Shown: positions 1 through 55,121 of the stretch, piece by piece
Layout: each line of letters begins with the position of its first letter
How positions within the stretch are numbered: the stretch's first letter is position 1
Assembly (NCBI RefSeq): GCF_003113895.1
Contig: NZ_BDUD01000001.1
Coordinates: forward strand, 4,030,448-4,094,447
Direction of reading: 5' to 3'
Length of the DNA: 64,000 bases
DNA from: Nostoc commune NIES-4072
GTDB lineage: Bacteria > Cyanobacteriota > Cyanobacteriia > Cyanobacteriales > Nostocaceae
Notes under the pieces: model-generated
The model's database searches: none
Seen by the model: the letters and a program-made list of their open reading frames with translations, nothing else
Told to the model about the DNA's origin: nothing
Position numbers and translations under genes: made by a program

Positions 1-370
1 CAGCAATGATCGAGAGAGAACCAGTCACTAGGGCAGCAGCCCCAATTCCTTGAAGGGTTCGTCCAGTAATCAAGATACTCAAATTGGGAGCTAGACCGCA
101 AATTAAAGAAGCGATCGTGAAGATGACTAGCCCTGTAAGGAAGACTCGCTTACGTCCATAAATGTCTCCTAATGTTCCGCTTGGCAGCATCATACCAGCA
201 GCAGACAAAGTGTAAGCGTTGAGAATCCACTGTAATCCCGACACGCCAGAGTTTAGACTTATCTGAATTTTGGGAAGCGCCACATTCATCACAGTGTCAT
301 CAATATTGGCCATGAAGAGGGCGAAACACATTGCCGCTAGGGTAACTGTTTTAATACGATCTCGATTCAT
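1..370 (-). CDS. DHA2-type MFS efflux transporter, N-terminal part (cut by window edge)
   Basis: Reading from the ATG at 370 down to the window edge gives about 123 residues of a drug:H+ antiporter of the EmrB/QacA type. Visible features are the TM1 sequence FALFMANIDDTVMNVALP, with the family's conserved acidic residues, and the motif A loop GDIYGRKRVF between TM2 and TM3. Such pumps export small amphipathic molecules through the inner membrane. The start lies 8 bp after the stop of the glycosyltransferase gene, so this looks like the last visible gene of the biosynthetic operon and probably exports its product. The rest of the gene is outside the window, so completeness cannot be judged. 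Confidence 0.85.
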   Translation of the reverse strand, partial: MNRDRIKTVTLAAMCFALFMANIDDTVMNVALPKIQISLNSGVSGLQWILNAYTLSAAGMMLPSGTLGDIYGRKRVFLTGLVIFTIASLICGLAPNLSILITGRTLQGIGAAALVTGSLSIIA

Positions 371-378
371 CGCTGTTA

Positions 379-1611
379 CTACCTCTGCTGGAGTGGTTCT
401 GCCACTGTTGTTTTAGTTGTTTTATAATTATTAGCAAGAATCTTCTGTAAGATATCGGGAATTTCAAACACGGCTCTATTGTTTACCGCAGCGACATTTG
501 CACGGTAGCGGGCGAAATTTTCCGGCTCAAGAAACTGCTCAACTGCTCGGTCAATATCTCGAAAACTGCGGATAACCAGACCTACTTGCTGGTGTTGAAT
601 CCAGTCAGTGTTGTATTGTTCCTGCGGCATTGTTGCAGCACTTCGTTCCACAATTACTGGTAGCTTCATGACTAACGCTTCACTAATACTACCAGGGCCT
701 GGTTTACCAATCATAAAATCACTAAGATGCATATAGTAAGGAATGTCTTTTGTAAAGGTGGTGACAAACCTTTTCTGGAGACTTTGGCTCTCACGTAAAG
801 CTAAAGCTAGTTCTTCATTGCGTCCGCAAATAAAGATGAGTTGTAGTTTTTGGTGAAAAGACTCTAGACGCTTGGCAATTTCTAGCATTGCTTTGGAGCC
901 ATTACCCCCGAATAATACAAGTCCAGTCAGACAGTCTGGATCTAAACCCAAGCGTTGCCTTTCTTGGGCGCGATCGCTGACAATTGGTTCATAAAAGCGA
1001 GGGTTAATCACCATTCCCGAAGTTTTGACGATCAGATCCTCATTTACTCCTAGAGAACGAGCTTGTTCCACTGCTTTTTGGGTGCCACAAACAACATAAC
1101 TTCCCGTTTCTGGTTCTATCCAATAGGCCGACGGAAAATCAGCAAAATCTATCAGAACTGTCACTAAAGGTGTGCCTGGTTTTACTTTCTGTAAACTTTC
1201 CCAGATCATTTTATTAAACAACGGCACTACAGAAACTACTAGGTCTGGCTGTTGTTCGCGCCACTGTTCCTCAAATATCCTCACACCAGCATCGTAATTT
1301 AGTTTGATCAGTAGTTTATTGAAGGGCATTGTCAGATGGTGAATCCATGTCCAACCGCTTTGCATAATCTGGTTGAGAACTTGATCTCCACTAGTTCCGA
1401 ATAACTTGTAGATATCCAGTGTCTTTTGTCCTTCAGCTAACCGCTTTGCTAATATGTCCACATCGGTAATACTAGTTTGACAGGGGAGTTGTTGCTCAAT
1501 TATTGAAGATATCGCATTAGAAGTAGCGATATGCCCTCCACCACTATTTCCGGTGACAACATTGATCAAAAACTTTTTTTTGGGATATGAGGATGATTGC
1601 ATTGTTTCCAT
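379..1611 (-). CDS. MGDG synthase-like glycosyltransferase (GT28 type), copy 1
   Basis: This 410-residue protein has the two halves of the MGDG synthase/processive diacylglycerol glycosyltransferase family. The N-terminal acceptor half has the glycine-rich loop GNSGGGHIATSNAI, matching the family's GGGHxA motif near residue 25. The C-terminal nucleotide-sugar half has LFGGNGSKAM and the donor-site signature GKPGPGSISEA. These enzymes transfer a sugar from a UDP-sugar to a lipid acceptor at the cytoplasmic membrane face. It is a clear paralogue of the gene at 3910-5085. It sits in the cluster beside UDP-galactopyranose mutase, so the natural guess is glycosylation of the lipid-polyketide. Sugar and acceptor cannot be read from sequence. 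Confidence 0.85.
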   Translation of the reverse strand: METMQSSSYPKKKFLINVVTGNSGGGHIATSNAISSIIEQQLPCQTSITDVDILAKRLAEGQKTLDIYKLFGTSGDQVLNQIMQSGWTWIHHLTMPFNKLLIKLNYDAGVRIFEEQWREQQPDLVVSVVPLFNKMIWESLQKVKPGTPLVTVLIDFADFPSAYWIEPETGSYVVCGTQKAVEQARSLGVNEDLIVKTSGMVINPRFYEPIVSDRAQERQRLGLDPDCLTGLVLFGGNGSKAMLEIAKRLESFHQKLQLIFICGRNEELALALRESQSLQKRFVTTFTKDIPYYMHLSDFMIGKPGPGSISEALVMKLPVIVERSAATMPQEQYNTDWIQHQQVGLVIRSFRDIDRAVEQFLEPENFARYRANVAAVNNRAVFEIPDILQKILANNYKTTKTTVAEPLQQR

Positions 1612-1672
1612 AAATACAAAATATCTCTTAAAAACTAAACTTTTTTTGTTATGCTATTGAGCAAATCTCTAT

Positions 1673-2644
1673 TCAACTAAGTTCTCCAGCGACTCCATAA
1701 GGAAGACGAGAATTGGAGTAAATGCTTTTGCGGAAGATGATGCTCATCCCAGAATAAAAATTGAGCCAATAGCCAAAAATTGCGTAAAATACGAAGAATA
1801 TAAATCTGCTCGATGTCAAAACTTTCCTTGAGTTGATCGGTTCGTGAAAGACATCTACCGGGCGGCCGAGGATGCGTTGGTACTCATTGGAAACACGAGC
1901 ATTTAGGGTAGGCCAGAGTGTATCATGATTAGGCCGTAATGAATCTATAAACTCCCACCCTTGACGACGCCCGAATAATTCGATGGATTCACGAGTATAA
2001 ATATGAAGGTGGTACGGGACATGTACCGCGTTACAAATATCGTTTATGTCAGGTCGATTTAAGTTAAGGTTAGACGCGTTTGGTGTGCTGATCAGAATAT
2101 AACCACCAGGAGCAAGCAAGTTGTTTAACTTATCTAACAAGGCATTAGGATCTTTAACATGTTCGATGACATCCTGAAGTAAAATGTAATCGAATGCTCC
2201 TTTTTGAAGCGTTGCCGGATCGCCGAAGCCGTCCTTGGTTCCGTAAGGATCATATCCGTGACAATTGGTAAAGCCTTGTTGCCGGAGGTATTGTACAAAT
2301 AGGCCGTTTGCACCACAGCCATAATCGAGTATTGAGTGAGTCTTGGAAAACCCATACTTGGTAAGTTGTTTGCGTAATTTTCTGTAGAAGACGCGAAAGG
2401 GCCATGTCAATGTTGCCTGAGCAATCGGATATTTTGCGTAGTAATGATCAAGATCCACAATATCTAGACAATGAATTGTCTTGCAATCAGGACATCTCCA
2501 AACCTTAAATGTTTCATGCATAAAGGCTCTGACGTTGCATGGAAATGTAGAAAATGCAGATTCATCATTCGGATCAACGCGATAATTGCAAATCAAACAT
2601 TCAAGGCGTTGCTTGGTTGTACTAACAAGTTGTTGTTGCACCAT
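1673..2644 (-). CDS. SAM-dependent methyltransferase with N-terminal Cys-rich segment
   Basis: Class I methyltransferase of the Methyltransf_23/UbiG-like kind. Motif I is ILDYGCGANG, followed by the acidic YDPYG at the end of strand 2. Motif II/III features DYILLQDVIEH and APGGYILISTPN are also present. Ahead of the fold two CxxC pairs (CLIC and CPDC) suggest a small zinc-binding region, a layout common in methyltransferases of sugar or polyketide clusters. A TTG nine codons upstream (to 2671) is in frame, but the ATG at 2644 has AGAAAG just before it and is preferred. It probably O-methylates the glycan or aglycone of the cluster product. The methylated position is unknown. Confidence 0.8.
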   Translation of the reverse strand: MVQQQLVSTTKQRLECLICNYRVDPNDESAFSTFPCNVRAFMHETFKVWRCPDCKTIHCLDIVDLDHYYAKYPIAQATLTWPFRVFYRKLRKQLTKYGFSKTHSILDYGCGANGLFVQYLRQQGFTNCHGYDPYGTKDGFGDPATLQKGAFDYILLQDVIEHVKDPNALLDKLNNLLAPGGYILISTPNASNLNLNRPDINDICNAVHVPYHLHIYTRESIELFGRRQGWEFIDSLRPNHDTLWPTLNARVSNEYQRILGRPVDVFHEPINSRKVLTSSRFIFFVFYAIFGYWLNFYSGMSIIFRKSIYSNSRLPYGVAGELS

Positions 2645-2747
2645 AATCTTTCTGTGAGAAAATATTAACAATTTTTTAGGGAGAATTTTAGGGAAATTCT
2701 ATGTTTTTTTATCCATCACAAGTGCGATCGCATCTTTTTCGCACTTT

Positions 2748-3875
2748 CTACATAGAATTGGCTATTTCTTTCTCAAACAAACCAAGCGCCCGAAGCACTG
2801 CATGATCCATGTCATAGTACTTATAATCTCCAAGTCGTCCGGCAAAGAGTACTGTACCGTTGAGTTTCTCTACTTCTTTGAGGTATAAGCTCAAGCGATC
2901 GCGGCTCTCTTCATTGAGAATAGGATAATAAGGATCATTTCTCCCTGGTACATAAGCCTGGGGATATTCCATCACCAAGGTAGTTTTAGGAGATGTTTGT
3001 CCTGATAAATACTTCTGTTCAGTGATGCGAGTGATATCGTAATCGTTGGGATAGTTAACTGTACCCACTTCTTGATAATGTTCTTGATCCAAAGTATCGA
3101 ATTGAAAGCGCAGACTACGATAAGGCAATTCACCATACATATAATCAAAAAAGGTGTCAATCGGCCCAGTGCAAAGTAACCGATGAAACTTAACATCTTT
3201 GATAATCTCGCGGTAATCTGCGTTTAGCAGTACCTTAATGTTGGGATGAGCAAGCATCCGCCGGAACATTTCTGTATAGCCTAGTTTAGGCATAGCCTGA
3301 TAAGGGTCTTGAAAATAACGGTCATCCCGACTGATATAAACTGGAACGCGTCCCGTTACCCCCCGATCGAGATCCTCTGGTTTCATTCCCCACTGTTTGA
3401 TTGTGTAATGGAGAAAAACATTTTCATAAATGTAATCAGCTAAAAAGGTGAGATCGCCACTAGCACTCTCTCGCAGTTTTAAAATAGGTACTTTCACTCC
3501 AAAACCGAAGTTTTCTAGAAGCAAATTCTCTAGCTTCTCTGCATATTTCTCAGGAAAAAGTGCATGGAGAGAATTGAGATTAAAAGGGATAGGAACTTTC
3601 TTACCCTCTAAAACTCCCAACACATGATGATAGTAATGCCTCCATTCTGTAAATTGAGAGAGATAATCCCATACTTTCTTAGACTTAGTATGAAAGATGT
3701 GAGGCCCATATTTATGAACGAGAATACCATGCTCGTTGTAGTAATCATAGGCATTACCCCCAATATGATCTCGCTGCTCTACAATTAGTACTCTCTGCCC
3801 AAGCTGAGTTGCTAGGCGTTCAGCCATTACACAGGCTGAATATCCAGCCCCTACAATCAGCCAATCAAATAGCAT
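2748..3875 (-). CDS. glf: UDP-galactopyranose mutase
   Basis: This 375-residue flavoprotein interconverts UDP-galactopyranose and UDP-galactofuranose. The N-terminal FAD Rossmann motif reads LIVGAGYSACVMAE, followed by the family hallmark RDHIGGNAYDYY. The substrate-site region HKYGPHIFHT is present and the C-terminus has the FAGRLGDYKYYDMD signature that closes the FAD site. Length matches bacterial Glf. It lies between two lipid-type glycosyltransferases in the same orientation and close spacing, so the cluster probably has its own UDP-Galf supply. No O-antigen genes are visible nearby, which favours a role in tailoring the lipid-polyketide. Confidence 0.95.
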   Translation of the reverse strand: MLFDWLIVGAGYSACVMAERLATQLGQRVLIVEQRDHIGGNAYDYYNEHGILVHKYGPHIFHTKSKKVWDYLSQFTEWRHYYHHVLGVLEGKKVPIPFNLNSLHALFPEKYAEKLENLLLENFGFGVKVPILKLRESASGDLTFLADYIYENVFLHYTIKQWGMKPEDLDRGVTGRVPVYISRDDRYFQDPYQAMPKLGYTEMFRRMLAHPNIKVLLNADYREIIKDVKFHRLLCTGPIDTFFDYMYGELPYRSLRFQFDTLDQEHYQEVGTVNYPNDYDITRITEQKYLSGQTSPKTTLVMEYPQAYVPGRNDPYYPILNEESRDRLSLYLKEVEKLNGTVLFAGRLGDYKYYDMDHAVLRALGLFEKEIANSM

Positions 3876-3909
3876 ATTATTTCACTCCGGTTATTTTTTT
3901 CGGAATTCA

Positions 3910-5085
3910 TCAAACTGTTGAGGATAACTGCTTATTTGTCTCAACCGTTGGAGAAGGCACAACTGAGAAGGAGTTTTCAAGTATTTGTTCCAAAATATCA
4001 ACAACTTCAAATACTCCTTGATTGTTGATCGCGGCGGCGTTGGCACGGTACTGAGCTAGAGTTTCCGGTTGGATTAGCTTTGCTACAGCTTGGTTAATAT
4101 CGCGGAAATCGCGGACTACAATTCCAATTTCATTTTCTGCAATCCACTCAGCCGAGGGTCGTTCTTGAAACATACTTAAGGCGTTGCAATCTGTAATTAC
4201 TGGTAAGCTCATTGCCACAGCTTCGCTAACACCTACAGAGCCGGATTTACCAATAAAGAAATCCGATAGATGCATGTAGTAAGGAATTTCACTAGTAAAA
4301 GTTTCAATGTACCTTGGTAAGCGACTCTGTTGACGGCGCAAAGTATTTGCTATTTCTTCATTACGTCCGCAGATAAAAATGAGTTGTAGATTCAATGACG
4401 ATTTCTCTAGAGAATCGGCAATTTCTAGCATTGCTTTTGAACCCTGACTACCAAAAGTTATTAAACCTGTTGGTAAATCTGGATTTAGACCTAAGCGTTC
4501 TCTTTCAATTTTGCGATCGCTATTTACGGGTTCAGAAAATCGAGGATGAATTACTACTCCTGAAGTGCTGAAAATTCGCTCTTGCGTATAACCCAAGTTT
4601 TTTGCTTGTTCAACTGCTCGTTGAGTAGGACATATTAAAAATTGTCCTTGTGGATCAATCCAGAAGTTGGGTGGACAATCGGCATGATCGGTCATTACCG
4701 TTGCAAAAGGCACACTAGGCGATACTGCCTGCAAGCTTTGATTAATCAGCCCGTTGATATAAGGCAGTAATGAAACCACCATATCAGGTTGATGCTGCTG
4801 CCAATATCTTTTAAAACGTCCTAGCCAAGCAAAACGAGAAAGGCGTATTTGTAATTTGAATGAGGGAACTAAGAAAGGGTCATTAATAATTTTTGCCCAG
4901 TTCTTTTTGAGTATTAGCTGATTGTAAACGTAGTGTGGAGCAGTCGTACCAATAATTTCTTTGAAAGCATCAACTATATGAATTTCCCAAGGTAATTGCC
5001 GCTTCTCGATCACTTTTTGCAAAGCATTGGCTGTGCTGCGATGACCTGCACCTAAATCATAAATCATCAAATATACTTTTTTCAT
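3910..5085 (-). CDS. MGDG synthase-like glycosyltransferase (GT28 type), copy 2
   Basis: This 391-residue paralogue of the protein at 379-1611 opens with the lipid-acceptor loop YDLGAGHRSTANAL. The donor half has TFGSQGSKAML and IPYYMHLSDFFIGKSG. The donor signature differs from copy 1: KPGPGSISEA has become KSGSVGVSEA, losing both prolines of the usual phosphate-binding loop. That could mean another donor sugar or weaker activity. It lies 34 bp upstream of glf in transcription order. Together with copy 1 it suggests two sequential sugar transfers. Role in lipid-polyketide tailoring is inferred from context. Confidence 0.83.
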   Translation of the reverse strand: MKKVYLMIYDLGAGHRSTANALQKVIEKRQLPWEIHIVDAFKEIIGTTAPHYVYNQLILKKNWAKIINDPFLVPSFKLQIRLSRFAWLGRFKRYWQQHQPDMVVSLLPYINGLINQSLQAVSPSVPFATVMTDHADCPPNFWIDPQGQFLICPTQRAVEQAKNLGYTQERIFSTSGVVIHPRFSEPVNSDRKIERERLGLNPDLPTGLITFGSQGSKAMLEIADSLEKSSLNLQLIFICGRNEEIANTLRRQQSRLPRYIETFTSEIPYYMHLSDFFIGKSGSVGVSEAVAMSLPVITDCNALSMFQERPSAEWIAENEIGIVVRDFRDINQAVAKLIQPETLAQYRANAAAINNQGVFEVVDILEQILENSFSVVPSPTVETNKQLSSTV

Positions 5086-5155
5086 GGTTTTACCATTTGG
5101 TTTGTATTTGGGTTCGGGACAATCTTGTTAAATTTGATATCTAAATTCAACAATG

Positions 5156-6052
5156 TTATCTTTCACTGGTTTTGTCTGATGTTGCTCCTACCATTGATTT
5201 ACTTCCACTAAATTTCAACGCAACGTGCTTTTGATTCTCGATGCGGAGTTGATTGAGCTTACCTACTCCCATCCACTGATAAACTGCGTCGCCAAATAGA
5301 GGAAAAATTTGCCACAGCCCCATCAGCAGTTTTGATATAGTTTCTGTTGTCGGATCTTGATTGACAATCACTTCTGCTTGATTCTGCTTAATAGCGCGGA
5401 TGACCGCTTTTGCGACATCATCTGGTGTAGATGCGCCTGCTAACTTTGGTATCGGTACGCCAGTATCGGCAATCATTCCCTCACCAGAAACATATCCCGG
5501 ACAGATTGCAGAAATCTCCACGCCAGTACTAGCTAGTTCTTGTCTAAGTGCATCAGTCCATATAAGAAAACCAGCTTTGCTAGCAGAGTAAACACTGTTG
5601 TAAGGGTTTCCCTTTTTACCAGCTAGAGAAGCAATATTAACAATGTGACCCCTGTTTTGGGCTAACATCGTTGGTAGTACCAAACGACTTAATTCCATCC
5701 CCGATAGCAAGTTAATTGTTAATATTGACTGTAACTCCGCAGTTGAATAATCTTGAAATTTTTTGTATATCTCTATACCTGCGTTGTTAATCAAAATGTC
5801 AATTGGCCCTGCAAGCTGATTGATTTGCTGAATGAGGTTTGGCAGCTCCTCAAGCTTGCTGAGGTCATATTTAATACCTAACCAGCGACCTCCTAAAGCT
5901 TTGACTTCGGCAGCTACTTGATCTAATGCCTGTTGCGATCGCGAAACACCAACTATAGTTGCTTTTTCTTTTGCCAAAGCACGAGCAATAAAGACTCCTA
6001 TCCCGCGTGAGGCTCCTGTCAAAAGTACTGTCTGACCTGCAATAATTGTCAT
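5156..6052 (-). CDS. Short-chain dehydrogenase/reductase
   Basis: Classical SDR of 298 residues with the NAD(P) motif TGASRGIG near residue 12, the structural NNAG motif, catalytic Ser in the NIASLAGK segment, and the YSASK active site. A C-terminal extension of about 50 residues ends with a low-complexity tail. It probably oxidises a hydroxyl or reduces a carbonyl on the cluster's intermediate. The gene follows the unknown docking-domain gene by 38 bp on the same strand, so it is likely co-transcribed. Such SDRs are common in both fatty-acid and polyketide tailoring and the substrate cannot be predicted. Confidence 0.85.
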   Translation of the reverse strand: MTIIAGQTVLLTGASRGIGVFIARALAKEKATIVGVSRSQQALDQVAAEVKALGGRWLGIKYDLSKLEELPNLIQQINQLAGPIDILINNAGIEIYKKFQDYSTAELQSILTINLLSGMELSRLVLPTMLAQNRGHIVNIASLAGKKGNPYNSVYSASKAGFLIWTDALRQELASTGVEISAICPGYVSGEGMIADTGVPIPKLAGASTPDDVAKAVIRAIKQNQAEVIVNQDPTTETISKLLMGLWQIFPLFGDAVYQWMGVGKLNQLRIENQKHVALKFSGSKSMVGATSDKTSER

Positions 6053-6090
6053 GTTTGCTTAACATCCTCTTTCATTCAGTACAACTTAGT

Positions 6091-7956
6091 TCAGGAAGTA
6101 GCAACGTTCTCTTTGAGAGAAGGGAAATGTTTCCCACCCAGTTCAATTTGCTCCTGTTCAACTCCGGTTTTGATTCTGGCGAGTAAATATTTCCAGTCAG
6201 AAGCAATAATATTTGTGCCATGATCTGGTTCTATCAAACTGGCTAAGGCAATATTGCTGCCATATTTATTCACTAAATTGTATATACCTAAGAAATTAAA
6301 AACTCCTGATTCATAAGTTCCACAAGGAACTGAGGGATTTTGAACTCCAGTACAGTATTCATGGGGTTGCAACCACTCTTTTGAAGGATATCCGTGGAAA
6401 TGAACCATTGGCATCCCATTTTCAATTAACTCTGGTGCGTATAAAGCAGCAGCCAGTGCGATCGCCACCATGACATAGATATCGTAAGATGGTTTGATCT
6501 CGCCTGCTCCAGAATCAAGTCCTTTTGGCAACTGGAGTAATAATCTGTCTTGTAATCCAATCCTAAATATGTCTGTTTCTAAATTCAGGTTTGTTTTATT
6601 TGAGCCTGAACGAGAACTAGCAAGCCAGATATCTGGTATTTGTTTAAATACGTATTTTTCGGCAATCTTGGTTTTGATATACCTTCTACCAATTTGATTC
6701 TGACGCAGTTCATCACGGCTGAATCCTGCGATCGTTGATAAGCTGTCCCACTCCCTCTCGGATATTTCTACAGCACCGATATATTGTGGCGGTTCGGCGT
6801 ATGCAACAAAACCGTAAGAAACTCCGGTTCTGCCATTTATCATCCAGTCTACAATATCTCGATGGGACTTTCTTTTCATCACATCGTTAATTTTAAAACC
6901 AGAAGGTAGTAAATCTGTTGATGCTAATTCTTTACCCAATTTGACTAATTGACCTGCATAGGCAGATGCTTTCGCGTCATATTCACCAATTTCAAATCGA
7001 CTTAAAGGTAATGGTTGAATTGGGACAAAGATTTTAGGAATTAAGGATTTAGAAACGAACTCATCAAGTAACTCTGTAGAAAATACTGAGTCTGAGAGGT
7101 TCATGTTTAAGATAGAGATATTGGTGTTGTCAACCCCAATCACAATTTCCGAAAAGTTCTTGATGAGGGTATTTACACCAATTGGAATTTTTTGCTGATA
7201 AGGTATTTTTGGATCGACTAGCTTTGGATTCAGTTTTGTTAAAACGATCGCTTGAGTATTTGTTGGGTCTTCAAGTGGTTGGACACTCTCTTCAGCCCAA
7301 CTGATAAATTGCATGATTTTAGCAGCAGATATCGGGTTTTTGTTGAAAACAAAACGAGAATATAATCGATAGAGCAATTCTGCTAAAACTATCTTTGCTT
7401 TGCCAAACAAAGAAGGATGTTTTTCAACATCTACGACAGCATTAACACCTGATTTAATCACCCTTGTGGTAATATTCCTTTTCCAATTAATTAAAGGAAT
7501 AGTAATTTCGTAGTTAAACTCTTTAGTTGCTTCTTCCCAAGATAATATCTGAACTCCGTTTTCTTGTAATTTATGTTCTAACTCTTTCCTAAACTGTAAA
7601 ACTGTTTCTTCTTTATAACCATTAGGCAAAGGTCTAAAGGTAACTTTTAGCTTATTTGCCATCACTTTTGGATCGATGACAGGAGGGATAAAGCCTGTAA
7701 TTTTACGACAATAACCACCAATCAAACGACCAATTGTTTGCAAACTCAGGTCTTGAGCTTTAGTTGTAGAACTATCAGTAACGACATCGTTACTATTTTG
7801 CAGAAAGGCGAGAATTTCTGTTTTGCGTTGAGCTAGTTCTGTACGGATTTCTGCTGTTAGTAATCCTTTCGGAGAATTAATCTTGAGTTTATCATTATCA
7901 GCCCACAACTGAACGCCTTGATGATTAAGATTTTCCAAAAGTTCTGATACGTTCAT
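6091..7956 (-). CDS. Unrecognised protein with N-terminal TubC-type docking domain
   Basis: Residues 1-55 (opening MNVSELLENLNHQGVQLW) match the TubC_N docking domain that normally starts NRPS or PKS subunits and grips the acidic C-terminal tail of the preceding subunit. The remaining 560 residues belong to no family I recognise: there is no condensation, adenylation, thioesterase or ketosynthase motif. The last 150 residues look most conserved and include a hydrophobic helix near 493-508, an HFHGYP motif at 519-524, HEYC at 532-535 and Cys545. The gene directly follows PKS module 2, whose C-terminus is acidic. Since neither PKS has a thioesterase, this protein may take the chain from the last ACP and release, transfer or modify it. 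That is inference. Confidence 0.75.
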   Translation of the reverse strand: MNVSELLENLNHQGVQLWADNDKLKINSPKGLLTAEIRTELAQRKTEILAFLQNSNDVVTDSSTTKAQDLSLQTIGRLIGGYCRKITGFIPPVIDPKVMANKLKVTFRPLPNGYKEETVLQFRKELEHKLQENGVQILSWEEATKEFNYEITIPLINWKRNITTRVIKSGVNAVVDVEKHPSLFGKAKIVLAELLYRLYSRFVFNKNPISAAKIMQFISWAEESVQPLEDPTNTQAIVLTKLNPKLVDPKIPYQQKIPIGVNTLIKNFSEIVIGVDNTNISILNMNLSDSVFSTELLDEFVSKSLIPKIFVPIQPLPLSRFEIGEYDAKASAYAGQLVKLGKELASTDLLPSGFKINDVMKRKSHRDIVDWMINGRTGVSYGFVAYAEPPQYIGAVEISEREWDSLSTIAGFSRDELRQNQIGRRYIKTKIAEKYVFKQIPDIWLASSRSGSNKTNLNLETDIFRIGLQDRLLLQLPKGLDSGAGEIKPSYDIYVMVAIALAAALYAPELIENGMPMVHFHGYPSKEWLQPHEYCTGVQNPSVPCGTYESGVFNFLGIYNLVNKYGSNIALASLIEPDHGTNIIASDWKYLLARIKTGVEQEQIELGGKHFPSLKENVATS

Positions 7957-8106
7957 AGATTCACCATTTTTGTTGTTATTTAAACAGAATTCAGGGGTCA
8001 GGAATCAGAATTCAGAATGAATTATGTGTCAATAGGGTTGGCTAAAAGTAAGTTTTTTGAACGTAGACGCAAAGACGCAAAGGACGCGAAGCAAGAAATG
8101 CTTAAC

Positions 8107-11082: not shown

Positions 11083-11086
11083 CTCT

Positions 11087-14000
11087 TCAGTACCTCATGC
11101 TATTTAATTTACCAAGCAGCAGTGCTTCGGCTTCGCTGTCTGATAAATCGTCTAAATATGACTCAGTTACAACTTGCTCCTTATGGTTGGTTTCTTGTGA
11201 TTCGACAGCAGATTCATCAGAAATTAAAGATGCAATCGCATCTTTTAGTAGATAATCAACAAGCGCCTCAATTGTGGGATAGTCAAAAACTAAAGTTGAA
11301 GGTAGAGAACAACTTAGAGTGCTTTCCAAACGGTTCTTTAACTCCACTGCCATCAGAGAATCCATGCCGAGATCAAGAAAACCTTGTTGCGGCTCTAATT
11401 CCGATGCATCAATCCCTAAAAGTTTAACAAGTTCAGTTTGGATGTGAGCAATTAAAAGAGGTTGCCGCTCGTTTACAGGGGTTGCTTCTAACTGTTGTAA
11501 AAATTTTGTTCGTTGCAACGATGGTTTTTTATCTATGGCAATGAAAGATTCCAAAAATGGTGAAACCACACCTTCAGGAAATTGTTCGCAGAACTTAGAC
11601 CAGTTGACTGGCAATACTCCTACCTGGCTTCTATCCTGTCCTAGCAAATTTCCTAATATCTGCAATCCCTGTTCTAATGGTATAGACTCCATTCCTTGAG
11701 CTGCTAATCTCGCTTGATCGCGGTTTCCCAGACTTGTAGCCATGCCAGCATCTTTCCAAAGTCCCCAGTTGATGCTTAATCCTGGTAGTCCTGATGCTCG
11801 GCGATAATCGGTTAACGCATCCATGAAAGCATTGGCGGCTGCATAATTTCCTTGACCTGGCGAACCTAATAACGCCGCAGCCGAGGAAAATGTAACAAAG
11901 AAATCCAGTTGTAACTGCTGGCTCAATGTGTGCAGAATCCAAGTTCCTCTAACCTTTGCTGCCATAACTTGCTCGAAGGACTTCCACTCCTGCTGTCGAA
12001 GGATGCCATCGTGGAGCATACCAGCAGCGTGGATAATTCCTCCCAGAGGTGGCATCGAGGTTTTAATTTCCTCGAATACTCTGACCATATCGCTCCAGTG
12101 GGCGACATCAGCAGTGGCGATCGCTACCTTTGCTCCCAGATTTTCCATCTGAACGATCGCTTGGAGTACTTCAGCTGATGCCTGTTTGCGCCCAGTCAGC
12201 ATTAAATGCCGCGCCCCTTGCTCTACCATCCACTGTGCTACTTTTAGACCTAATGCTCCCAACCCTCCAGTAACCAAATATGTGCTATCTGATTGCAGAG
12301 ATATTGAACGAGCCTCTGATACTTCGCTGCGGATGAGACGAGCCACATAACGCCGTCCTTCTCGGAAGGCGATTTGGTCTTCCCCTTGAGAATCCCGAAT
12401 CTCTGCTAACAGATTTACTGCTTCATCTGTGGGAGCATCGGCAGCCAAATCTAGTAGTCCTCCCCACAACTTGGGATGCTCTAAAGCAATAACTTTACCC
12501 AATCCCCACAAAGAAGCCTGGGCTGGTGCTTGCAATGAGGATACTGCTGGTACTGCTCCTCTAGTTACTAACCACAAACGGGGCGAAGCGAGGCGTGAGG
12601 CAAGAGCTTGCACTAGATGCAAGGTACTGGCACAACCAAGAACCTGAATCTTTTCTATTAAAGGGACGGTTAATTCTGAAGTCAATCCTGCTTCTAAACT
12701 CCACAGGTGAACAACTCCTTTTAACGGTAAGTTGTTAGTTCCCACTACCTCTTGCACAAGCTGCTCAAAATCGGCTGGGTTCGATGGGTTAACACTCCAA
12801 GTTCCAGGCTGTTTAACTTCATAGCTGTCCCCAGGATAGACCAGAAAACAATTTTCACCCTGCTTTTGTAAAAGATGGGCTAGAGCTTGTCCAACACCCG
12901 ATCTGTCAGCTAAAATCAGCCAACTACCAGGTTCTTGAGCGCTGATTTGTGTCAACTGACGTGGCTTAGGCTGCCAACTAACTTCGTAGAGCCAATCTTT
13001 GTAGGATGCTGCTGTTAGTTGTTGTTGATGTTGCTTGGCTAATATGTCTAGCAGCTTAGGGAGTACTTTGATTTCTTCTTCTGAGAATTGTGTTGCAGTT
13101 TGTAAGTATTTGGCTAGTTCTTGAGTCTCCCCTTGATGTAAAAGATTGAAGATTTGAGTCTGAATCCGATCTGGGGATAAAGACTCTGTTTTTGAATCCC
13201 CATTCTTAACTTGTTCAAACCAATAGCGCTGGCGTTGAAATGGGTAATTTGGTAAAACAACTCGACGACGGGCATAGTCTCGATCAAAGCCATTCCAATC
13301 TACGATCGCACCCTTAATGTACAATGTCGCCAAACTGTCAAGGATTTGTTGCCAATCTTCACGCCCAGTCCGCAGGCTAGGCAGCCAAGTTCCCTCTCCC
13401 TCCGGCAAACAATAACGACCCATTCCCATGAGTATAGGCTTGGGGCCAATCTCGACAAATATCTTGTAGCCCCTCTGATACAGCGACTCCATACTGTCTG
13501 CAAATCTTACTGGCTGCCGCACATGATTGCACCAATACTCAGGGGTAGCCATTTCATCTGTAATTGGTTGACCAGTGAGATTGGAAATTAGACTAATTTT
13601 AGGTGAAGAGTAGGTAATATTTTTAGCTACTTGCTCAAACTCACCTAGCATTGGTTCCATTAAGGGAGAGTGGAAAGCATGAGAAACTTGTAACTTTTTC
13701 GTCGTGATTCCTTGTGTCCGCAGAATGTTGGTGACTATTTCTATAACGTCGCGATCGCCAGAAATTACTATATTCTTAGGGCCATTAATCGCAGCGATGG
13801 CTACTTGGGCATAAGGTTGAATAATTGAGGTTACTAAAGCTTCCGACGCAATTACCGCCACCATCTCACCATCTTGGGGCAATGCCTGCATGAGACGAGC
13901 GCGTTCGGCAATTAACTTTAGACCATCTTCTAAACTAAATATCCCGGCAATACAAGCAGCTGCATATTCACCTACACTATGCCCCATCACTGCATCTGGT

Positions 14001-15844
14001 TTGATCCCCCAGGATTCCCATAACTGAAATAGAGCATATTCCAGAGCAAACAAGGCTGGTTGAGTATAAGCAGTTTCATCTAAAGGCGAAGATTTGCCAG
14101 CTTCGGGATAAAGAATCTCTACTAAAGGCTGCTTAAGATATGGATGCAGAATTTGGGCGCATTTGTCAATAGCTTCCCTAAAAATCGGTTGGGTATCGTA
14201 GAGTTGACGGCCCATACCGACATACTGCGATCCCTGACCGGTGAATAAAAATGCTAGCTTCGGCAACTTCTTTTTCTTTAATTGCCCACTCCTAAGACCG
14301 GAAGTATCTTCTCCAGCGCCAAAAGCACTCAATTGCTGACACATTTGGACAGCAGATTCACCAACAACAGCCAAGCGATGCTCAAAATGCGATCGCCCCG
14401 TATTTCCACTAAAGCAGACATCCGCCAACGATACTTCTGGATGAGACGCAAAGAAATCTTGATACTCTTGTGCTAGTTCCACTAGAGCTGGAGCAGTTTT
14501 CGCCGATAGGGTCAGAATATGCTGGGGTCGTTCTATAGAACCAGTATTCCCCAATCTAAAATTAGATGGTGATTCTTCTAAAATTATGTGACAATTGGTG
14601 CCACCGAAACTAAAAGCACTGACTCCTGCCAAGCGACTTTCAGAGGAAGACCAAGGCTGACGCTCAACTGGAATGGCAAAGGGTGTGCCTTCCAGAGAAA
14701 TATAAGGATTAAGCTGCTTAAGATGCAGATGAGGCGCAATTTCCCGTTGCTGCATTTGTAAGACCACCTTGATCAGGCCAGCCATACCAGCAGCACCTTC
14801 TAAATGACCAATGTTGGTCTTGACTGAGCCAATCCAACAGGGTTGATCTGGGGAACGACCTTCCATCAATACAGCTTTGAGGGATTTGACTTCAATGGGA
14901 TCTCCTAAAGAAGTGCCAGTCCCGTGAGCTTCTACATAGCTAATCTGCGCTGGGGCGACTCCAGCCTGTTCTAAGGCTTGGCGAATAACTGCTTGCTGGG
15001 AAGGCCCATTGGGAGCTGTCAGTCCATTACTTGTACCATCTTGGTTAATTGCCGAGCCTCTAATTAGCGCCAAAATGTTGTCTCCATCACGCACGGCATC
15101 TTCTAGACGCTTAAGTACGACAACGCCGCAACCTTCTCCTCTGCTATAACCATCAGCACTAGCGTCAAAGGTCTTACAGCGACCGTCAGGAGCCATCATC
15201 TGAGCTTGGGAGCAAGAAATTGCAGGCTCTGGAGCTAACATTAAGTTAACTCCTCCAGCTAGGCAGAGATTGGACTCTCCGTTTCGTAAACTCTGGCAAG
15301 CTAAATGAATTGCTACTAATGATGAAGAACAAGCTGTATCTATAGCTATACTGGGGCCACGCAGATTTAGCAAGTAGGATAGACGATTGGCGGCAATGCA
15401 AGGAGTAGTCCCCGTAGCACTATATGCACCGATTTGGGAAGAGTCTTTGTAGATCAGTTTGTGGTAGTCAGCGTTGGTAACACCGATGAACACACCTGTT
15501 TGGCTACCAGCTAGAGTTTTTGGTACAAGTCCAGTATTTTCTAAAGCTTCCCAAGCTACTTCCAAGACTAATCTTTGCTGGGGGTCTAGATGTTCTGCCT
15601 CGCGGGCAGAAATTCCAAAAAAGTTGGGATCAAACAAATCTACTTGATCTAAAAAACCGCCCGAACGGGAGTTCATTTTTCCTGGTGTCGCTGGCTTAGA
15701 TTCATAAAAGGCGTTTATATCCCATCGTTCTGGTGGTACTTGTGCGATCGCATCTACTCCATCACGCAAGAGATGCCAAAACAACTCAGGATTTTTAGCT
15801 TTGGGAAAACGGCAACCAATGCCAACAATTGCTATGGCTTCCAT
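11087..15844 (-). CDS. Type I PKS module 1: KS-AT-KR-ACP
   Basis: A complete cis-AT module of about 1585 residues; positions are counted from a TTG one codon upstream. The KS has Cys173 (TACSSSL), His308 (HGTGTSLG) and His348 (NIGH). The AT has GHSVGE with Ser624 and HAFHS at 723-727, which indicates malonyl-CoA. The KR (about 1185-1370) has TGGLGALG, Ser1321/1322 and Tyr1335. The ACP has GMDS with Ser1497. No DH, ER or TE is seen, so one round of extension should give a beta-hydroxyacyl chain. The C-terminal segment [14 protein letters not shown] is a typical PKS docking tail. Module 2 begins 4 bp after this stop. The ATG at 15844 follows AAGAGG by about 12 bp. Confidence 0.95.
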
Positions 15845-16036
15845 CAAAATATTATGCCTCTTTTTAACTAATTACTAATTCGTAGTTAATAATTTAATTA
15901 CGAATTGTGAATTAGGGATTTCCAAGAAATAAATTACCCAAATAAACCTAGACGCCGAGAACACAGAGAACACACAGGAATAAAGAAGAGAGAGTTTTTT
16001 GGATATTTTTTATTTGGAAGTCCCTTACGGATTGCT

Positions 16037-17434
16037 TTAAGTGTCTTGAGCTATAACCGATTTTTTGAACTCTTTAAAGACCGGAATATTGTTTTGAATT
16101 GCTTTGTCAATTGAGGCTCCAGCAGCCATAATCCCCATGTTACGGTTGACAGACCACTGATAGTCTAGGCGATTAAATAATCTCCGCATCAATTCCAAAA
16201 GACTTTGATGATATTTAAGCCCGGTTTGGAAACCTTCATGTTCTTGGCAGAAGCATTTTTCCATCCAATCAAGTGCTTCTTTTGTTTCCATATCAAATAA
16301 AGGAGACTTTAAGAGCTTGTAGTAAAAGAGCATCAACATCTGGTCATCATAAACACAACGACCTGGTAATACTCCAGAAAGTCCGCTCAAAAGGTTGCGT
16401 TGGATTTGATAGACTATCGAACCAGAGATAAATTTCTCGTAAGCAGTTGGCTTGGGGAAATCCTTATACATATCTCTGGCAATGGTTTGAGAGATTGTTG
16501 TATGGAAAGCCTCGTCCAATAAGTGGTAATAAGAAACAGCTGTTGGAGCCGGAATATACTCGCCTTTTTGCTCTAACTCTCGGTAATACCTGACATAAGG
16601 ATATTCCTGATTCTTGAGAATCGCATTAGCCGTATAGCGCAAGGAATAGTATTGACACGCCATAAACGGCGACATACCCCAGTGAACAGTAAAAAACCGT
16701 AACCAGTGGCGGGGTGCGATTCGTCCTGCTAGTCCATCTGCTGGTGCAGGAATCGGCTCACCTTTTTCTTCTAAATTTCTCAAATACTGAGAGTAATACT
16801 GTTTTTTATCGCTCAACATTGTCTTAGCGATCGCGCTTAAGGTATTATCTCGCTGTATTGAAAAGGGAGAACTTCCTTGATTAGAGGTGAAATACTCTCG
16901 CACAGGTTGAGGAATCAAAAGATTAAGCCAACTACTGTTGTCTTTTGCTGTTTTGCCATAAAGGGAATTACCCAATATGGTTTTACCAACAATCGCCATT
17001 TTCGATTTGTAGCCGATCTTTTGAAAGGTACGAATGTGGTAGCTTTCCTGCTCGGTTTCAAAGTCCAGTTCATCACAAAGCGTTTCATAACCACCAACGG
17101 CACGAAAAACACCAGACGTGACCATGTTGTAAATACTTGTACTGGCTTCGCTAACAGCAGTATGGTTATAATTTCCAACCCAATAAAGATGGTTAAGGGC
17201 TAGTTTTTGGGTTTCAGAAGCAGCATCATAAAGAGGAGTCCCATACAGAAGCGAAAGGTCAGGTTTACTCCAATAATAATTGCTGTTTTTGGCGTAATTA
17301 AATTCGTTACCCAGTTCTTTGAGTTTCTCAGTATAATCTGAGTCTTTATTATTTTGGTAAGTTTTTTCAATCCGATGGAAGTGCGTTGGTTCCTGCGCTT
17401 CTAACGGTTCGAGAGTCTTATTTAGAGTTACCAT
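16037..17434 (-). CDS. CylC-like dimetal-carboxylate enzyme (putative aliphatic halogenase)
   Basis: This 465-residue protein is placed by context and motifs with the CylC family from cylindrocyclophane-type clusters, ferritin-like dimetal enzymes that chlorinate ACP-bound fatty acyl chains at unactivated carbons. Two ExxH metal-binding motifs are visible: E130-SY-H133 and E308-AF-H311. Further acidic candidates are E96 and D306/D307. The gene lies immediately after FAAL and a free ACP and before the PKS, the same order as cylA-cylB-cylC. Homologous folds include AurF-type N-oxygenases and fatty-acid desaturases, so oxidation or desaturation remains possible. I cannot tell halogenase from oxygenase by eye. 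Confidence 0.7.
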   Translation of the reverse strand: MVTLNKTLEPLEAQEPTHFHRIEKTYQNNKDSDYTEKLKELGNEFNYAKNSNYYWSKPDLSLLYGTPLYDAASETQKLALNHLYWVGNYNHTAVSEASTSIYNMVTSGVFRAVGGYETLCDELDFETEQESYHIRTFQKIGYKSKMAIVGKTILGNSLYGKTAKDNSSWLNLLIPQPVREYFTSNQGSSPFSIQRDNTLSAIAKTMLSDKKQYYSQYLRNLEEKGEPIPAPADGLAGRIAPRHWLRFFTVHWGMSPFMACQYYSLRYTANAILKNQEYPYVRYYRELEQKGEYIPAPTAVSYYHLLDEAFHTTISQTIARDMYKDFPKPTAYEKFISGSIVYQIQRNLLSGLSGVLPGRCVYDDQMLMLFYYKLLKSPLFDMETKEALDWMEKCFCQEHEGFQTGLKYHQSLLELMRRLFNRLDYQWSVNRNMGIMAAGASIDKAIQNNIPVFKEFKKSVIAQDT

Positions 17435-17474
17435 GATTTTCTCCTGAATGCACTAAATATGAAGAGAATTGAGA

Positions 17475-17780
17475 TTATTTTTCAACTTTTAACTCTGAGA
17501 CTAAATGCTTAACTAGAGCCTCAACAGTTGGGTAATCATATAGTAGGGTTGGATCGAGTTCACATCCCAACCAGTCTTCTAAGTCACCTGTCAAACCGAC
17601 TGCTGCTGAAGAGTCTAATCCATAGCGGTCAAAAGGTATTGTGACTTCGATTTCGTCTGAATCAACTTCCAGCAAGTCAGCTAGATATAAAACTATCCAC
17701 GCTTGAATTTCTGCTGCTGTTGGGATCTGCTTCAGTGCAATTGTAGATGTGGTATTCAATTCCAGATTTTGCATTGTCAT
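17475..17780 (-). CDS. Free-standing acyl carrier protein
   Basis: A 101-residue carrier protein with the phosphopantetheine site YGLDSS (Ser57) and the helix pattern of a PKS-type ACP. It is similar in sequence to the terminal ACP of PKS2: both share PFDxYGLDS and a DYPT or HYPT turn. It lies between FAAL and the CylC-like gene, and so should accept the adenylated fatty acid and present it to the CylC-like enzyme and then to PKS1. The spacing to the CylC-like gene is 40 bp, consistent with one transcript. Confidence 0.93.
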   Translation of the reverse strand: MTMQNLELNTTSTIALKQIPTAAEIQAWIVLYLADLLEVDSDEIEVTIPFDRYGLDSSAAVGLTGDLEDWLGCELDPTLLYDYPTVEALVKHLVSELKVEK

Positions 17781-18130
17781 GGTTTAACTCCTTGTGTCTG
17801 TAAATGTTTTAACAATCAAATGAAATGTGTTCAGTTTTTTACTGCAACCATAGCTGTTTTGGAGATATTTATATTCCAAACCAAGCTAAAAAACTCTAGA
17901 AAATAAATGATCCCGGTATCTGGAGCTATCTGCTACTACTGCGACTCAACTATTGGAAATGTATGATAGTTTTTAATCTAACTACCTATAGATAAACCTC
18001 TAGAGAGTTTGCAGGTATTTATTTGGGATCGCTTTCTTCTGCTTCTGAAGGGATTTAACAAAACTCATCTTGTATGTCTGCTATTGAGTTGGGTTGGTAT
18101 GAATTTTTTCCTGGATAATTTGATTGCTGT
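17781..18130. other. Intergenic stretch between ACP and FAAL genes
   Basis: About 350 bp with no supported gene. It is the largest gap inside the cluster, so a second promoter for the ACP-CylC-PKS part could lie here. I see no clear operator or terminator. Confidence 0.5.
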
Positions 18131-19987
18131 TTATAGCTGGTTAGTAGGTGTTAACTGCCTTAAAACAGAATCAACCTCTGCTTCTAGATCCTTAAACTTA
18201 GCTTTGTTCTGAGGATTCTCACTCCAATCCTCCATGACATCCAAGGTGCCAGCAAGAAATGCAGTTCTACAAGCTTGACGGCGAATTTTGCCACTAGAGG
18301 TTTTGGGAATACTTCCAGTCTTGATGAGTACCGTAGCGAATATATCTAGTCCATGCTGTGCAATCACTGCTTGTCTTACATTTCCCAGAATTTCTTGAAC
18401 GTTTAACTTACGTAAGTAACTACGCTCTACCTCCTGAACAATAACTAGTCGCTCAGAACCCTTGAAATCAACGGAAAATGCGGCTCCTGAAGCAGGTTTC
18501 AGGGCTGGATGGCTCTTTTCAACAGTCAGTTCAATATCTTGGGGATAATGATTTTGCCCTCTGATGATAATTACATCTTTGAGTCTCCCTGTGATAAACA
18601 ACTCCCCATCTTGCAAAAATCCTAAATCTCCAGTGCGAAAAAACGGGATTGAGGTTTCAGCATCGCTTATATCTGTATCTGCTAAGTAGGCACGGAAAGC
18701 CTTTTCTGTCTCTTCAGGTTGATTCCAATAACCTTGAGCAACACTTGGGCCTGCTACCCAGATTTCCCCTACTTGCTCAGGTGCACATATCGTTAAAGAT
18801 TGGGGATCAACAATGATCACCTTCTGATCAGAAGGACTTTGCCCACAACCTACTATTGTCTGGATATCTCCCTGACTCTTATGCTGCTTAACAATTCGGT
18901 TTTGCTCTAATGCCGCTTTATCTACATTGCAAGTGATTGGTAAAGCTGTTTTCTCACCTCCGCTTACTATCAGAGTGGTTTCTGCCATACCGTAGCAGGG
19001 ATAAAATGCTTCTTTGCGAAAGCCACAAGGTGCAAAAGTTGAAGCAAACTGTTCTAAAGTCTCAGCACGGACAGGTTCAGCACCGGTAAAAGCAACCTCC
19101 CAACTGCTGAGATCGAGAGTTGCTAACTGTTCGGGTGTCACCTTGCGAATGCAAAGATCATAAGCAAAATTTGGCCCGCCACTAGTTGTAGCTTTGTAGT
19201 GAGATATTGCTTGTAACCAACGAATTGGTTTTTGAAGAAACTCTACTGGAGACATCAGAATGCAAGGAACTCCTAAATACAGGGGTTGCAAGACATTTCC
19301 AATGAGTCCCATATCATGGAAGACAGGTAACCAACCAACAACGATAGTTTTGTTTGTATGTCCGAAAGCTTTCTCGATCATCCGCTCGTTATGCAGCAGA
19401 TTCCCATGACTGATCATCACCCCCTTTGGCGTCCCTGTAGAGCCAGATGTGTATTGGAGGAAAGCTAAGGTATCACCGGTCAATTCCTGCGGTTGCCATG
19501 CTTGCGCTAGATCGTTACTCAACTCATCGGTAGCTAGCCAATGCAATCCCGAAATTTCTAAATCCTCTTGATTAGAACTAGTTTGGAGGTTATCTAAAAT
19601 AGATTTAGAAGTCAGTACAATTTTGGCTTGGGCATCTGCGGCTATTGCCTGCAACCTAGACAATTTTTGATTTCGTCTGGGTGGATATGCAGGAACAGCA
19701 ATAACGCCGGCATATAAACATCCAAAGAAAGCAGCGATAAAATCTAGACCCGGTTGATATAGCAGCAAAGCACGTTCACCGCCAAGATTTAGAGCCTGGA
19801 GACTAGCTGCGATCGCTTGTGCTTGCACATGTAACTCTTTATAAGTCAACGATGCTGCTTCTGTCTCTATACTTTGTAAAAAAGTATAAGCTTTTTGTTC
19901 AGACTGGTTTTTTGCTCTATAAATCAGCAATTCAACTAACGTTGAAAACTGATGCGGACTTATCACGCTGTTGGAATAAACACTCAT
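18131..19987 (-). CDS. Fatty acyl-AMP ligase (FAAL)
   Basis: This 618-residue member of the adenylate-forming superfamily activates a free fatty acid with ATP and passes the acyl group to an ACP. The P-loop YTSGSTGTPKG is at 179-189; the TGDLGFL motif and the C-terminal TSSGKIRRQACR, with the late lysine, are present. The N-terminal half (LTYKELHVQAQAIA, YPPRR) is the FAAL type found at the start of cyanobacterial lipopeptide and polyketide clusters, not the CoA-ligase type. It is the first gene of the operon and is preceded by a long non-coding region. Chain length cannot be predicted. Confidence 0.95.
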   Translation of the reverse strand: MSVYSNSVISPHQFSTLVELLIYRAKNQSEQKAYTFLQSIETEAASLTYKELHVQAQAIAASLQALNLGGERALLLYQPGLDFIAAFFGCLYAGVIAVPAYPPRRNQKLSRLQAIAADAQAKIVLTSKSILDNLQTSSNQEDLEISGLHWLATDELSNDLAQAWQPQELTGDTLAFLQYTSGSTGTPKGVMISHGNLLHNERMIEKAFGHTNKTIVVGWLPVFHDMGLIGNVLQPLYLGVPCILMSPVEFLQKPIRWLQAISHYKATTSGGPNFAYDLCIRKVTPEQLATLDLSSWEVAFTGAEPVRAETLEQFASTFAPCGFRKEAFYPCYGMAETTLIVSGGEKTALPITCNVDKAALEQNRIVKQHKSQGDIQTIVGCGQSPSDQKVIIVDPQSLTICAPEQVGEIWVAGPSVAQGYWNQPEETEKAFRAYLADTDISDAETSIPFFRTGDLGFLQDGELFITGRLKDVIIIRGQNHYPQDIELTVEKSHPALKPASGAAFSVDFKGSERLVIVQEVERSYLRKLNVQEILGNVRQAVIAQHGLDIFATVLIKTGSIPKTSSGKIRRQACRTAFLAGTLDVMEDWSENPQNKAKFKDLEAEVDSVLRQLTPTNQL

Positions 19988-20426
19988 TCAATGTGCCTCT
20001 ATATATTCAATTACAGTTATTTTTCAGACGGATATCATCTTGAATCTGCGTCAGAAATTTAGGGCGATCGCATGATGTCAATCATGATGTCAATAAGACT
20101 ATCTTATTTTTTAAATATTCTAAGTTAATCTCGCTAAAACCTGTTCATTAACAAATATTTAAATGATAGGTTTAAAGCTTAGAAAATAAATCAAATTACA
20201 ACAAATAGTGATTTATTCATTGCTGATTAATATTTCTTATCATCTAAATTAATTTAGATGGGTTTCACCGATTTCAAAAATCAGAGATTACTTTTGTTTT
20301 TGTTTGATGCATTTAGAATATAGGTATTTCTTCTATAAGTCAACACACCATTTAAAATTTTCTAACAAATCCCTCTATTGATATAGATTTATCTCTCTTA
20401 ACAATGTATTTAGCAATACTCTCTTT

Positions 20427-23918: not shown

Positions 23919-23929
23919 AGGTGGGTGTT

Positions 23930-51987: not shown

Positions 51988-51993
51988 GTTTTT

Positions 51994-52012
51994 AAATGCA
52001 TAATCTGCATTT
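51994..52012 (+). terminator. Hairpin after DUF4360 paralogue 1
   Basis: AAATGCA/TGCATTT with a 5-nt loop followed by AATTTTTC, just after the stop. The same hairpin with a longer loop follows paralogues 2, 3 and 4. Confidence 0.5.
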
Positions 52013-52039
52013 AATTTTTCACAAAAGCTGATGCCTCTA

Positions 52040-53565: not shown

Positions 53566-53569
53566 AAGT

Positions 53570-55120: not shown

Positions 55121-55121
55121 A

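Follow-up and report, generated by a model that had tools for sequence, protein, structure and literature searches.

How would an acyl chain be finished and released by a gene cluster that opens like a chlorinated-lipid pathway, continues into glycosyltransferase genes and has no thioesterase domain among its proteins scanned with Pfam? The question is raised by a 64,000-nucleotide stretch of the 8.2-Mb genome of Nostoc commune NIES-4072 (contig NZ_BDUD01000001.1; G000:C1:4030448-4094447 in our numbering; hereafter, the window). Leftwards from position 19987, on the minus strand, the window encodes a fatty acyl-AMP ligase (FAAL), an acyl carrier protein (ACP), a CylC-like enzyme, two polyketide synthase (PKS) proteins, a protein with a TubC_N domain (hereafter, the docking protein), a short-chain dehydrogenase/reductase (SDR), a glycosyltransferase (GT1), a UDP-galactopyranose mutase (UGM), a methyltransferase, a second glycosyltransferase (GT2) and a major facilitator superfamily (MFS) exporter. 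We assign this cluster with good confidence to the nostochloroside type, as a variant of the ngl cluster. The pathway proposed below appears, on balance, to be the best overall explanation, and its most distinctive step, release of the chain by the docking protein with the gain of one carbon, is put forward tentatively.

The gene cluster and its relationship to ngl

According to excerpts of its 2024 description (PMC10849952), the ngl (pks3) cluster of Nostoc punctiforme ATCC 29133 comprises a FAAL, CylC, PKS domains including ketosynthase (KS), ketoreductase (KR), acyltransferase (AT), dehydratase (DH), enoylreductase (ER) and ACP, a mutated KS, a glycosyltransferase and a sugar epimerase, together with NglO, the CylK homologue by which the chlorinated glycolipids are coupled through etherification. 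The window cluster shares with ngl, as described in these excerpts, the FAAL, CylC, a PKS with a KR, an inactivated KS, a glycosyltransferase, a CylK homologue and the logic of an O-methylhexosyl lipid; specifically, it contains a FAAL and an ACP that would feed a CylC-type enzyme, CylK homologues with the Arg/Glu/Tyr set and a mutated KS (QGTGT). An earlier note on this DNA had stated that the downstream half matched no cluster known to its author; with ngl as a close relative, the "unknown cluster" label is abandoned. Nevertheless, the gene content differs from that of ngl. Compared with the published excerpts, the window cluster has two GT28 transferases and UGM, two CylK homologues, an MFS exporter and no RTX match in the first CylK homologue (CylK1), and the Pfam scan detected neither DH nor ER domains in PKS1 (KS-AT-KR-ACP) or PKS2 (KS-partial AT-ACP); given the lack of DH and ER, we classify it as a variant rather than as ngl itself.

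All genes named in the earlier note were confirmed, on the minus strand and at roughly the positions given there. The cluster is cut by the window edge, beyond which, and so out of sight of that note, two CylK homologues follow the exporter, and the PKS that the note described as single is in fact two separate proteins, the second with an altered KS motif and a shortened AT. With both CylK genes, the cluster spans about 27.5 kb (G000:C1:4022966 to 4050434) and consists of the following features:

18131-19987, minus strand: FAAL (PF00501, E 2.5e-71; matches to the FAAL models of NCBIfam below their cut-offs)
17475-17780, minus strand: stand-alone ACP (PF00550, E 3.5e-17)
16037-17434, minus strand: CylC-like dimetal halogenase candidate (QESYH and HLLDEAFH motifs)
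11087-15847, minus strand: PKS1, KS-AT-KR-ACP (HGTGT and GHSVG both intact)
8107-11082, minus strand: PKS2, altered KS, altered AT and ACP (QGTGT; GNDVG; partial AT match)
6091-7956, minus strand: docking protein, 621 aa (TubC_N, Rossmann-like and class II aldolase-like domains)
5156-6052, minus strand: SDR (PF00106, E 7.6e-56)
3910-5085, minus strand: GT1, GT28/MGDG-synthase-like (PF06925/PF04101; best NCBIfam model, diglucosyl diacylglycerol synthase, below cut-off)
2748-3875, minus strand: UGM (TIGR00031, 437.5 bits, cut-off 303.75)
1673-2671, minus strand: S-adenosylmethionine-dependent methyltransferase, candidate sugar O-methyltransferase (PF13489, E 6e-24)
379-1611, minus strand: GT2, GT28/MGDG-synthase-like (Pfam and NCBIfam scans)
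2-370, minus strand: MFS exporter, first 123 of 516 aa, crossing the left window edge (full gene, L005:14268-15818)
G000:C1:4026303-4028819 (L005:11304-13820), same strand, outside the window: CylK1 homologue, next after the exporter
G000:C1:4022966-4025197, same strand, outside the window: CylK2 homologue, after CylK1

The FAAL presumably loads a starter acid, and the stand-alone ACP presumably carries it for the halogenase. The CylC-like protein contains QESYH (residue 129) and HLLDEAFH (residue 304), that is, both motifs of the dimetal-carboxylate halogenase signature QExxH/HxxDExxH, which cover 7 of the 9 residues named in excerpts of PMC12101540. Both motifs, allowing Asp or Glu in the second, are present in 119 of 120 homologues among the matches listed (the window's own entry included); at E <= 0.001, there are 826 homologues. 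The AurF model is matched only below its cut-off, and a PDB search with this protein produced no match at E <= 1. Gene content and motifs are thus in line with the FAAL-ACP-CylC starter logic of the earlier note, and a chlorinated glycolipid, envisaged there as a possibility, appears likely; the product of the ngl cluster is a chlorinated O-methylhexosyl lipid.

The CylK genes match the solved CylK at E ~1e-96 and ~1e-99, and both products have Arg32, Glu411 and Tyr445 at the positions of CylK Arg105, Asp440 and Tyr473; NglO also has Glu in place of Asp440 (PMC10849952, in excerpt). In the Pfam scan, CylK1 matches SBBP and LbR_Ice_bind only, the ice-binding-like beta-roll match covering STDVLTG-type repeats in the C-terminal part, the place of the RTX repeats in NglO. 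The survey of CylK across loci took CylK-like open reading frames (ORFs) of at least 550 aa. A CylK homologue (E <= 1e-50) was identified in 11 of the 53 genomes of the genus, and these are exactly the genomes in which the docking protein shares at least 68% identity with that of the window; in each of the 11, CylK is located within ~20 kb on the contig of the docking protein (G110 has a second CylK on another contig).

The genome contains two GLF genes, this UGM being one of them, and the TIGR00031 score of the UGM supports, as a possibility, the UDP-galactofuranose supply suggested by the earlier note. GT1 and GT2 are two of the four GT28-type matches in the genome, and relatives of the methyltransferase are also found in the ngl-like cluster L127. 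UGM accompanies GT1 in many related clusters, not in all: it was not seen in the stretches of L012, L013/L121, L016/L123, L018/L132/L133, L126/L127, L128/L129, L130/L131 and L074, and L014 ends before the UGM position. Judging from gene content, galactofuranose in the product is plausible; as a firm prediction it was rejected, considering this partial distribution and the gulose of the known relative.

Among related clusters, that of genome G112 (L126/L127) looks like ngl on account of its GT4-type transferase, its two methyltransferases and the RTX repeats of its CylK; it shares the backbone, the docking protein, the SDR, methyltransferases and a CylK with the window cluster and differs in an extra module, which resembles a fully reducing one, in the GT4-type transferase and in a DevB-type exporter. 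On a plasmid of Gloeothece verrucosa PCC 7822 (L074), the ACP-CylC-PKS-mutated KS-docking protein-reductase-like gene series is shared, with a FAAL adjoining on the opposite strand; the differences are a fully reducing module and a sulfotransferase, and no glycosyltransferase was seen in the stretch. The cylindrocyclophane (cyl) and bartoloside (brt) pathways employ similar CylC/CylK-type halogenation and alkylation logic, but include resorcinol-forming enzymes (PMC8406957 and PMC10849952, both in excerpt), none of which is among the annotated genes of the window cluster. Judged by title, no published cyanobacterial cluster combining FAAL, glycosyltransferase and UGM was apparent besides PMC10849952, which is also the only report of nostochlorosides in the literature searched.

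The terminal module and the docking protein

In PKS2, the KS motif is QGTGT, the AT motif is GNDVG instead of GHSVG, and the AT is shortened (the profile match spans positions 2-114 of 319); the ACP of this protein ends with ...ASESETFEI. Altered KS and AT active sites are a mark of non-elongating modules, and by these motifs PKS2 is probably a terminal module of this kind. This would leave one functional elongating module, PKS1, in agreement with the single extension expected by the earlier note.

The same arrangement is found in related clusters. We tallied KS motifs in loci L007-L023, L056, L063, L072-L074 and L120-L133, using alignments of >300 columns, counting each cluster once and leaving out Pfa-type loci. 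Of the clusters with a separate terminal module, all 17 have QGTGT, QGTST or NGTGT in the terminal KS that precedes the docking protein, whereas the elongating KSs of the same loci have HGTGT throughout (21/21), a pattern that the window follows. The active-site Ser is missing from the terminal-module AT in 12 of the 13 proteins in which the motif was found (14 examined). Where a terminal KS has lost the His and the AT has lost the Ser, loading of an extender and decarboxylation appear unlikely. Seven clusters have no separate elongating module (L017-L021, L023 and L131), and their sole KS has HAVGT, with the His retained in a changed context. One elongation module is present in the window, its close relatives and L074, and two in L120, L122 and L123 (two PKS1-like) and in L126 and L128 (one PKS1-like and one of the fully reducing type, its domain content deduced from 54% identity to the scanned L074 PKS). 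Thus, the mutated KS, the ACP, the docking protein and the reductase-like gene are constant across related clusters, while the number of elongation modules varies from 0 to 2.

The ACP next to the docking protein has a distinctive end. By a simple test, an ACP directly precedes the docking protein in 59 of the 65 loci with an upstream gene. An acidic tail (e.g., ESETFEI) is present on 65 of 67 ACPs preceding the docking protein, compared with 2 of 47 other ACP-ended ORFs of the same loci and a background of 87 among 1448 ORFs of at least 100 aa in all loci; this count is descriptive given that the motif was derived from the same ACPs. A stricter initial pattern, applied to a slightly larger locus set, gave 59/70 versus 0/59 and was loosened after it had missed 11 of the 70. 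The tail count excludes L120-L123, which come from the same genomes as L056, L013, L015 and L016. Neither the stand-alone ACP of the window nor PKS1 has this tail. The simplest reading of this pattern is that the acidic tail is the docking partner of TubC_N.

The docking protein combines an N-terminal TubC_N domain (Pfam E 1e-21; E 9e-8 to the AerJ docking domain in the PDB), a Rossmann-like middle domain and a C-terminal domain (residues 327-621) for which structure prediction yields a class II aldolase-like fold. The earlier note recognized a docking-domain protein here and left it unexplained. Residues D492, H519, H521, C545 and H579 are invariant in the family alignment, and the HxH...H signature with an acidic residue has spacing similar to that of the metal ligands of class II aldolases such as FucA; in the pathway proposed below, the domain is probably metal-dependent. 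The resemblance to class II aldolases (the fold of FucA, RhaD, AraD and MtnB) lies in this spacing and in the predicted fold; the docking protein differs from them in the lack of a detectable sequence-profile relation and in its fusion to docking and Rossmann-like domains. Neighbors of the predicted structure include a decarboxylase (2z7b) and an oxygenase (NovR). In literature searches for a class II aldolase associated with a cyanobacterial PKS, only a siderophore review surfaced, judged by title, and a TubC N-terminal docking domain was named in none of the papers listed.

Proposed route and competing explanations

Under the pathway that we favor, the FAAL would load a fatty acid, palmitate by analogy, onto the ACP, the CylC-like enzyme would chlorinate it mid-chain, and PKS1 would add one malonyl unit, with the KR leaving a beta-hydroxyl. 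The altered KS of PKS2 would then hand the chain, unextended, to the last ACP, whose acidic tail would dock into TubC_N. A metal-bound enediolate made by the docked aldolase-like domain would attack the thioester with loss of CO2 or a small acid to give R-CO-CH2OH, a net gain of one hydroxymethyl carbon, and the SDR would reduce this hydroxyketone to a 1,2-diol. One or both GT28 enzymes would glycosylate the diol, possibly with galactofuranose supplied via UGM, the methyltransferase would O-methylate the sugar, and the MFS protein would export the product. The two CylK homologues would join molecules by chloride displacement, as NglO does. What the analysis shows directly is the gene content, the motifs, the synteny and the predicted fold; all of the chemistry is inferred.

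The structure of nostochloroside A provides a comparison. The published excerpts (PMC10849952) describe it as C28H55O8Cl, with a 6-O-methylgulose and a C21 tail that is hydroxylated at C6, chlorinated at C12 and furnished with a vicinal diol on the sugar side; deuterium feeding showed that palmitate C7 becomes tail C12, and the authors regarded a five-carbon extension of palmitate as having little precedence and suggested cleavage of a larger product. From the labeling, palmitate C1 corresponds to tail C6, which in our assignment bears the hydroxyl expected of the KR module; C4 and C3 carry no oxygen in the structure as excerpted, as expected after a DH-ER-KR module, and we assign C2 to the last thioester carbon and C1 to the extra, oxygen-bearing carbon. 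With its single extension, the window cluster would be expected to produce a C19 tail of the 1,2,4-triol type; a palmitate starter and one O-methylhexose would give C26H51ClO8, [M+H]+ ~527.33, that is, nostochloroside A minus C2H4.

Several observations, along with the derivation and loosening of the tail pattern, weigh against this route. The C-terminal domain of the docking protein shows no profile relation to Aldolase_II (hhalign probability 0.2%), Aldolase_II (PF00596) was not found in a Pfam scan of 35 family members at E <= 5, and a profile search of PDB sequences retrieved no aldolase at E <= 5; considering these results, we do not classify it as a class II aldolase but only suggest that it works like one. 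The terminal AT of L074 retains the active-site Ser (GQSVG). In 17 of 18 nostochloroside-type loci, the gene immediately after the docking protein is of the SDR or epimerase type (the remaining one, L014, ends there), but when all 65 loci with downstream sequence are considered, just 31 have a reductase-like gene in that position and 36 have one within three genes, so that the reduction would be encoded elsewhere or be different in other contexts. The argument from the reductase is thereby weakened outside the nostochloroside-type clusters, and the strength given to the favored reading, which rests on these clusters, is left unchanged. Full-length docking proteins, at 58-61% identity, also occur in 17 further genomes of the genus without a CylK homologue, so the role of this protein is not tied to chlorinated lipids. 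The gaps leading to the CylK genes (447 and 1105 bp) make their co-transcription uncertain, no RTX match was obtained for CylK1 with Pfam, no NglK-like epimerase was identified among the annotated genes of the window cluster, the presence of a docking protein in ngl is deduced by analogy with the ngl-like cluster of G112, and the cleavage proposed by the nostochloroside authors in the excerpted text differs from release by the docking protein.

That cleavage proposal represents one of two alternatives to the release step, each of which we consider unlikely although worth weighing. Under this scenario, the altered KS still condenses, and the odd chain arises when a longer PKS product is cleaved or decarboxylated, the aldolase-like domain acting as a retro-aldolase or decarboxylase. 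The decarboxylase and NovR among the structural neighbors are compatible with it, as are the KS His kept in the seven HAVGT clusters and the AT Ser of L074; against it stand the uniform replacement of the His in separate terminal modules and the near-universal loss of the AT Ser. The other alternative is the release of an even-carbon chlorinated beta-hydroxy fatty acid with the sugar on the hydroxyl, the docking protein being a non-catalytic scaffold or an aldolase-shaped acyltransferase or hydrolase. The lack of a profile link to aldolases would fit, and a docking protein that hydrolyzes the thioester would also make up for the thioesterase domain missing from the proteins scanned with Pfam. 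However, the His/Asp set and Cys545 are invariant, a reductase-like gene comes directly next in all 17 nostochloroside-type loci with downstream sequence, and the tail of nostochloroside, as excerpted, has an odd number of carbons (C21), contains a vicinal diol and lacks a free carboxyl (PMC10849952).

Two further objections concern the cluster as a whole. The glycosyltransferases, UGM, methyltransferase and exporter could belong to an unrelated operon for a cell-surface glycolipid or polysaccharide that merely adjoins a chlorolipid PKS operon; UGM and glycosyltransferases are also used for envelope sugars, and a second UGM is encoded in the genome. We nonetheless deem this improbable because, in many related clusters and on a plasmid, the docking protein is likewise followed by these genes, and the gaps from the ACP to the exporter are just 4-189 bp (350 bp between FAAL and ACP), with no terminator-like site between the minus-strand genes in window positions 1-20000 in a scan that itself performed at chance level. 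Still less probable is that the CylC-like enzyme acts here as a desaturase or oxygenase on the way to a product that is not halogen-derived: its halogenase role is that of a candidate nominated by sequence, but it has both halogenase motifs, and CylK homologues, the known members of which use alkyl halides, are located nearby.

Spread of the docking protein and other features of the region

The gene order of the window cluster recurs with small differences in other genomes of Nostoc relatives and hence is not a chance assembly. On the 1.04-Mb plasmid pn1 of Nostoc sp. UHCC 0926 (L073), the genes from FAAL to exporter encode proteins 88-98% identical to those of the window, and a CylK homologue begins there as well, truncated at the limit of the sequence stretch; given this plasmid copy, the cluster may be mobile. 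The docking protein family includes at least 678-680 members among the best ~8,000 candidates scored, and 110 of the 217 genomes of the bacterial family contain a full-length match (a manual count that includes the genome of the window); 4 of the listed sites carry in-frame stops. Among the distant loci scanned, PfaD-type lipid synthase genes are found near L028, L039 and L044, PapA-like acyltransferases near L026, L039 and L054, and CylC-like and CylK-like genes in L022, L039, L041 and L061. The latter four loci perhaps represent another orphan class of halogenated lipids, L039 additionally encoding PfaD, FabH-like and tryptophan-halogenase-like proteins. L072, from a contig titled Candidatus Gracilibacteria, carries fragments of CylK alongside the docking protein and a reductase-like gene and is probably a misbinned cyanobacterial contig.

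Elsewhere in the window, five similar secreted-looking proteins of ~205-227 aa (51349-56762, plus strand; start MK.LTG..SSLTLLSLN..GLS.VQAQ) are encoded in tandem, an unexplained family. A 1074-aa protein (31336-34560, minus strand) reads as HEAT-type repeats with an NTPase part, the repeats yielding long overlapping ORFs in other frames. An RND-efflux-like ORF (36666-37904, minus strand) has a start that looks truncated and rearranged and is possibly a decayed gene, and a short ORF similar to the N-terminal region of cytochrome P450s (24831-25301, minus strand) is possibly a remnant; near the latter, a ParA-like reading at 23921-24634 had no Pfam match at E 0.001. Left of the window, the end of a nonribosomal peptide synthetase-like adenylation/condensation protein is followed by an MFS-like transporter (L005:6-3575, plus strand), perhaps another small cluster.

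The docking protein may exemplify a release-enzyme type widespread in cyanobacteria, in which a TubC_N-docked aldolase-like protein would read the acidic ACP tail and convert an acyl thioester to the precursor of a one-carbon-longer 1,2-diol, giving odd-chain lipids, downstream of FAAL/PKS lines that have between zero and two elongation modules and of PfaD-type lipid synthases; this generalization is slightly more doubtful than the release step itself. The present analysis connects a cluster of previously unassigned product with a known class of compounds, predicts a sharply defined mass and proposes a candidate enzyme, with a mechanism that can be tested, for a point left by the nostochloroside authors, where the C21 tail comes from (PMC10849952, in excerpt). 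Given that the docking protein is encoded in many uncharacterized cyanobacterial lipid clusters, a single enzyme assay would inform a large family.

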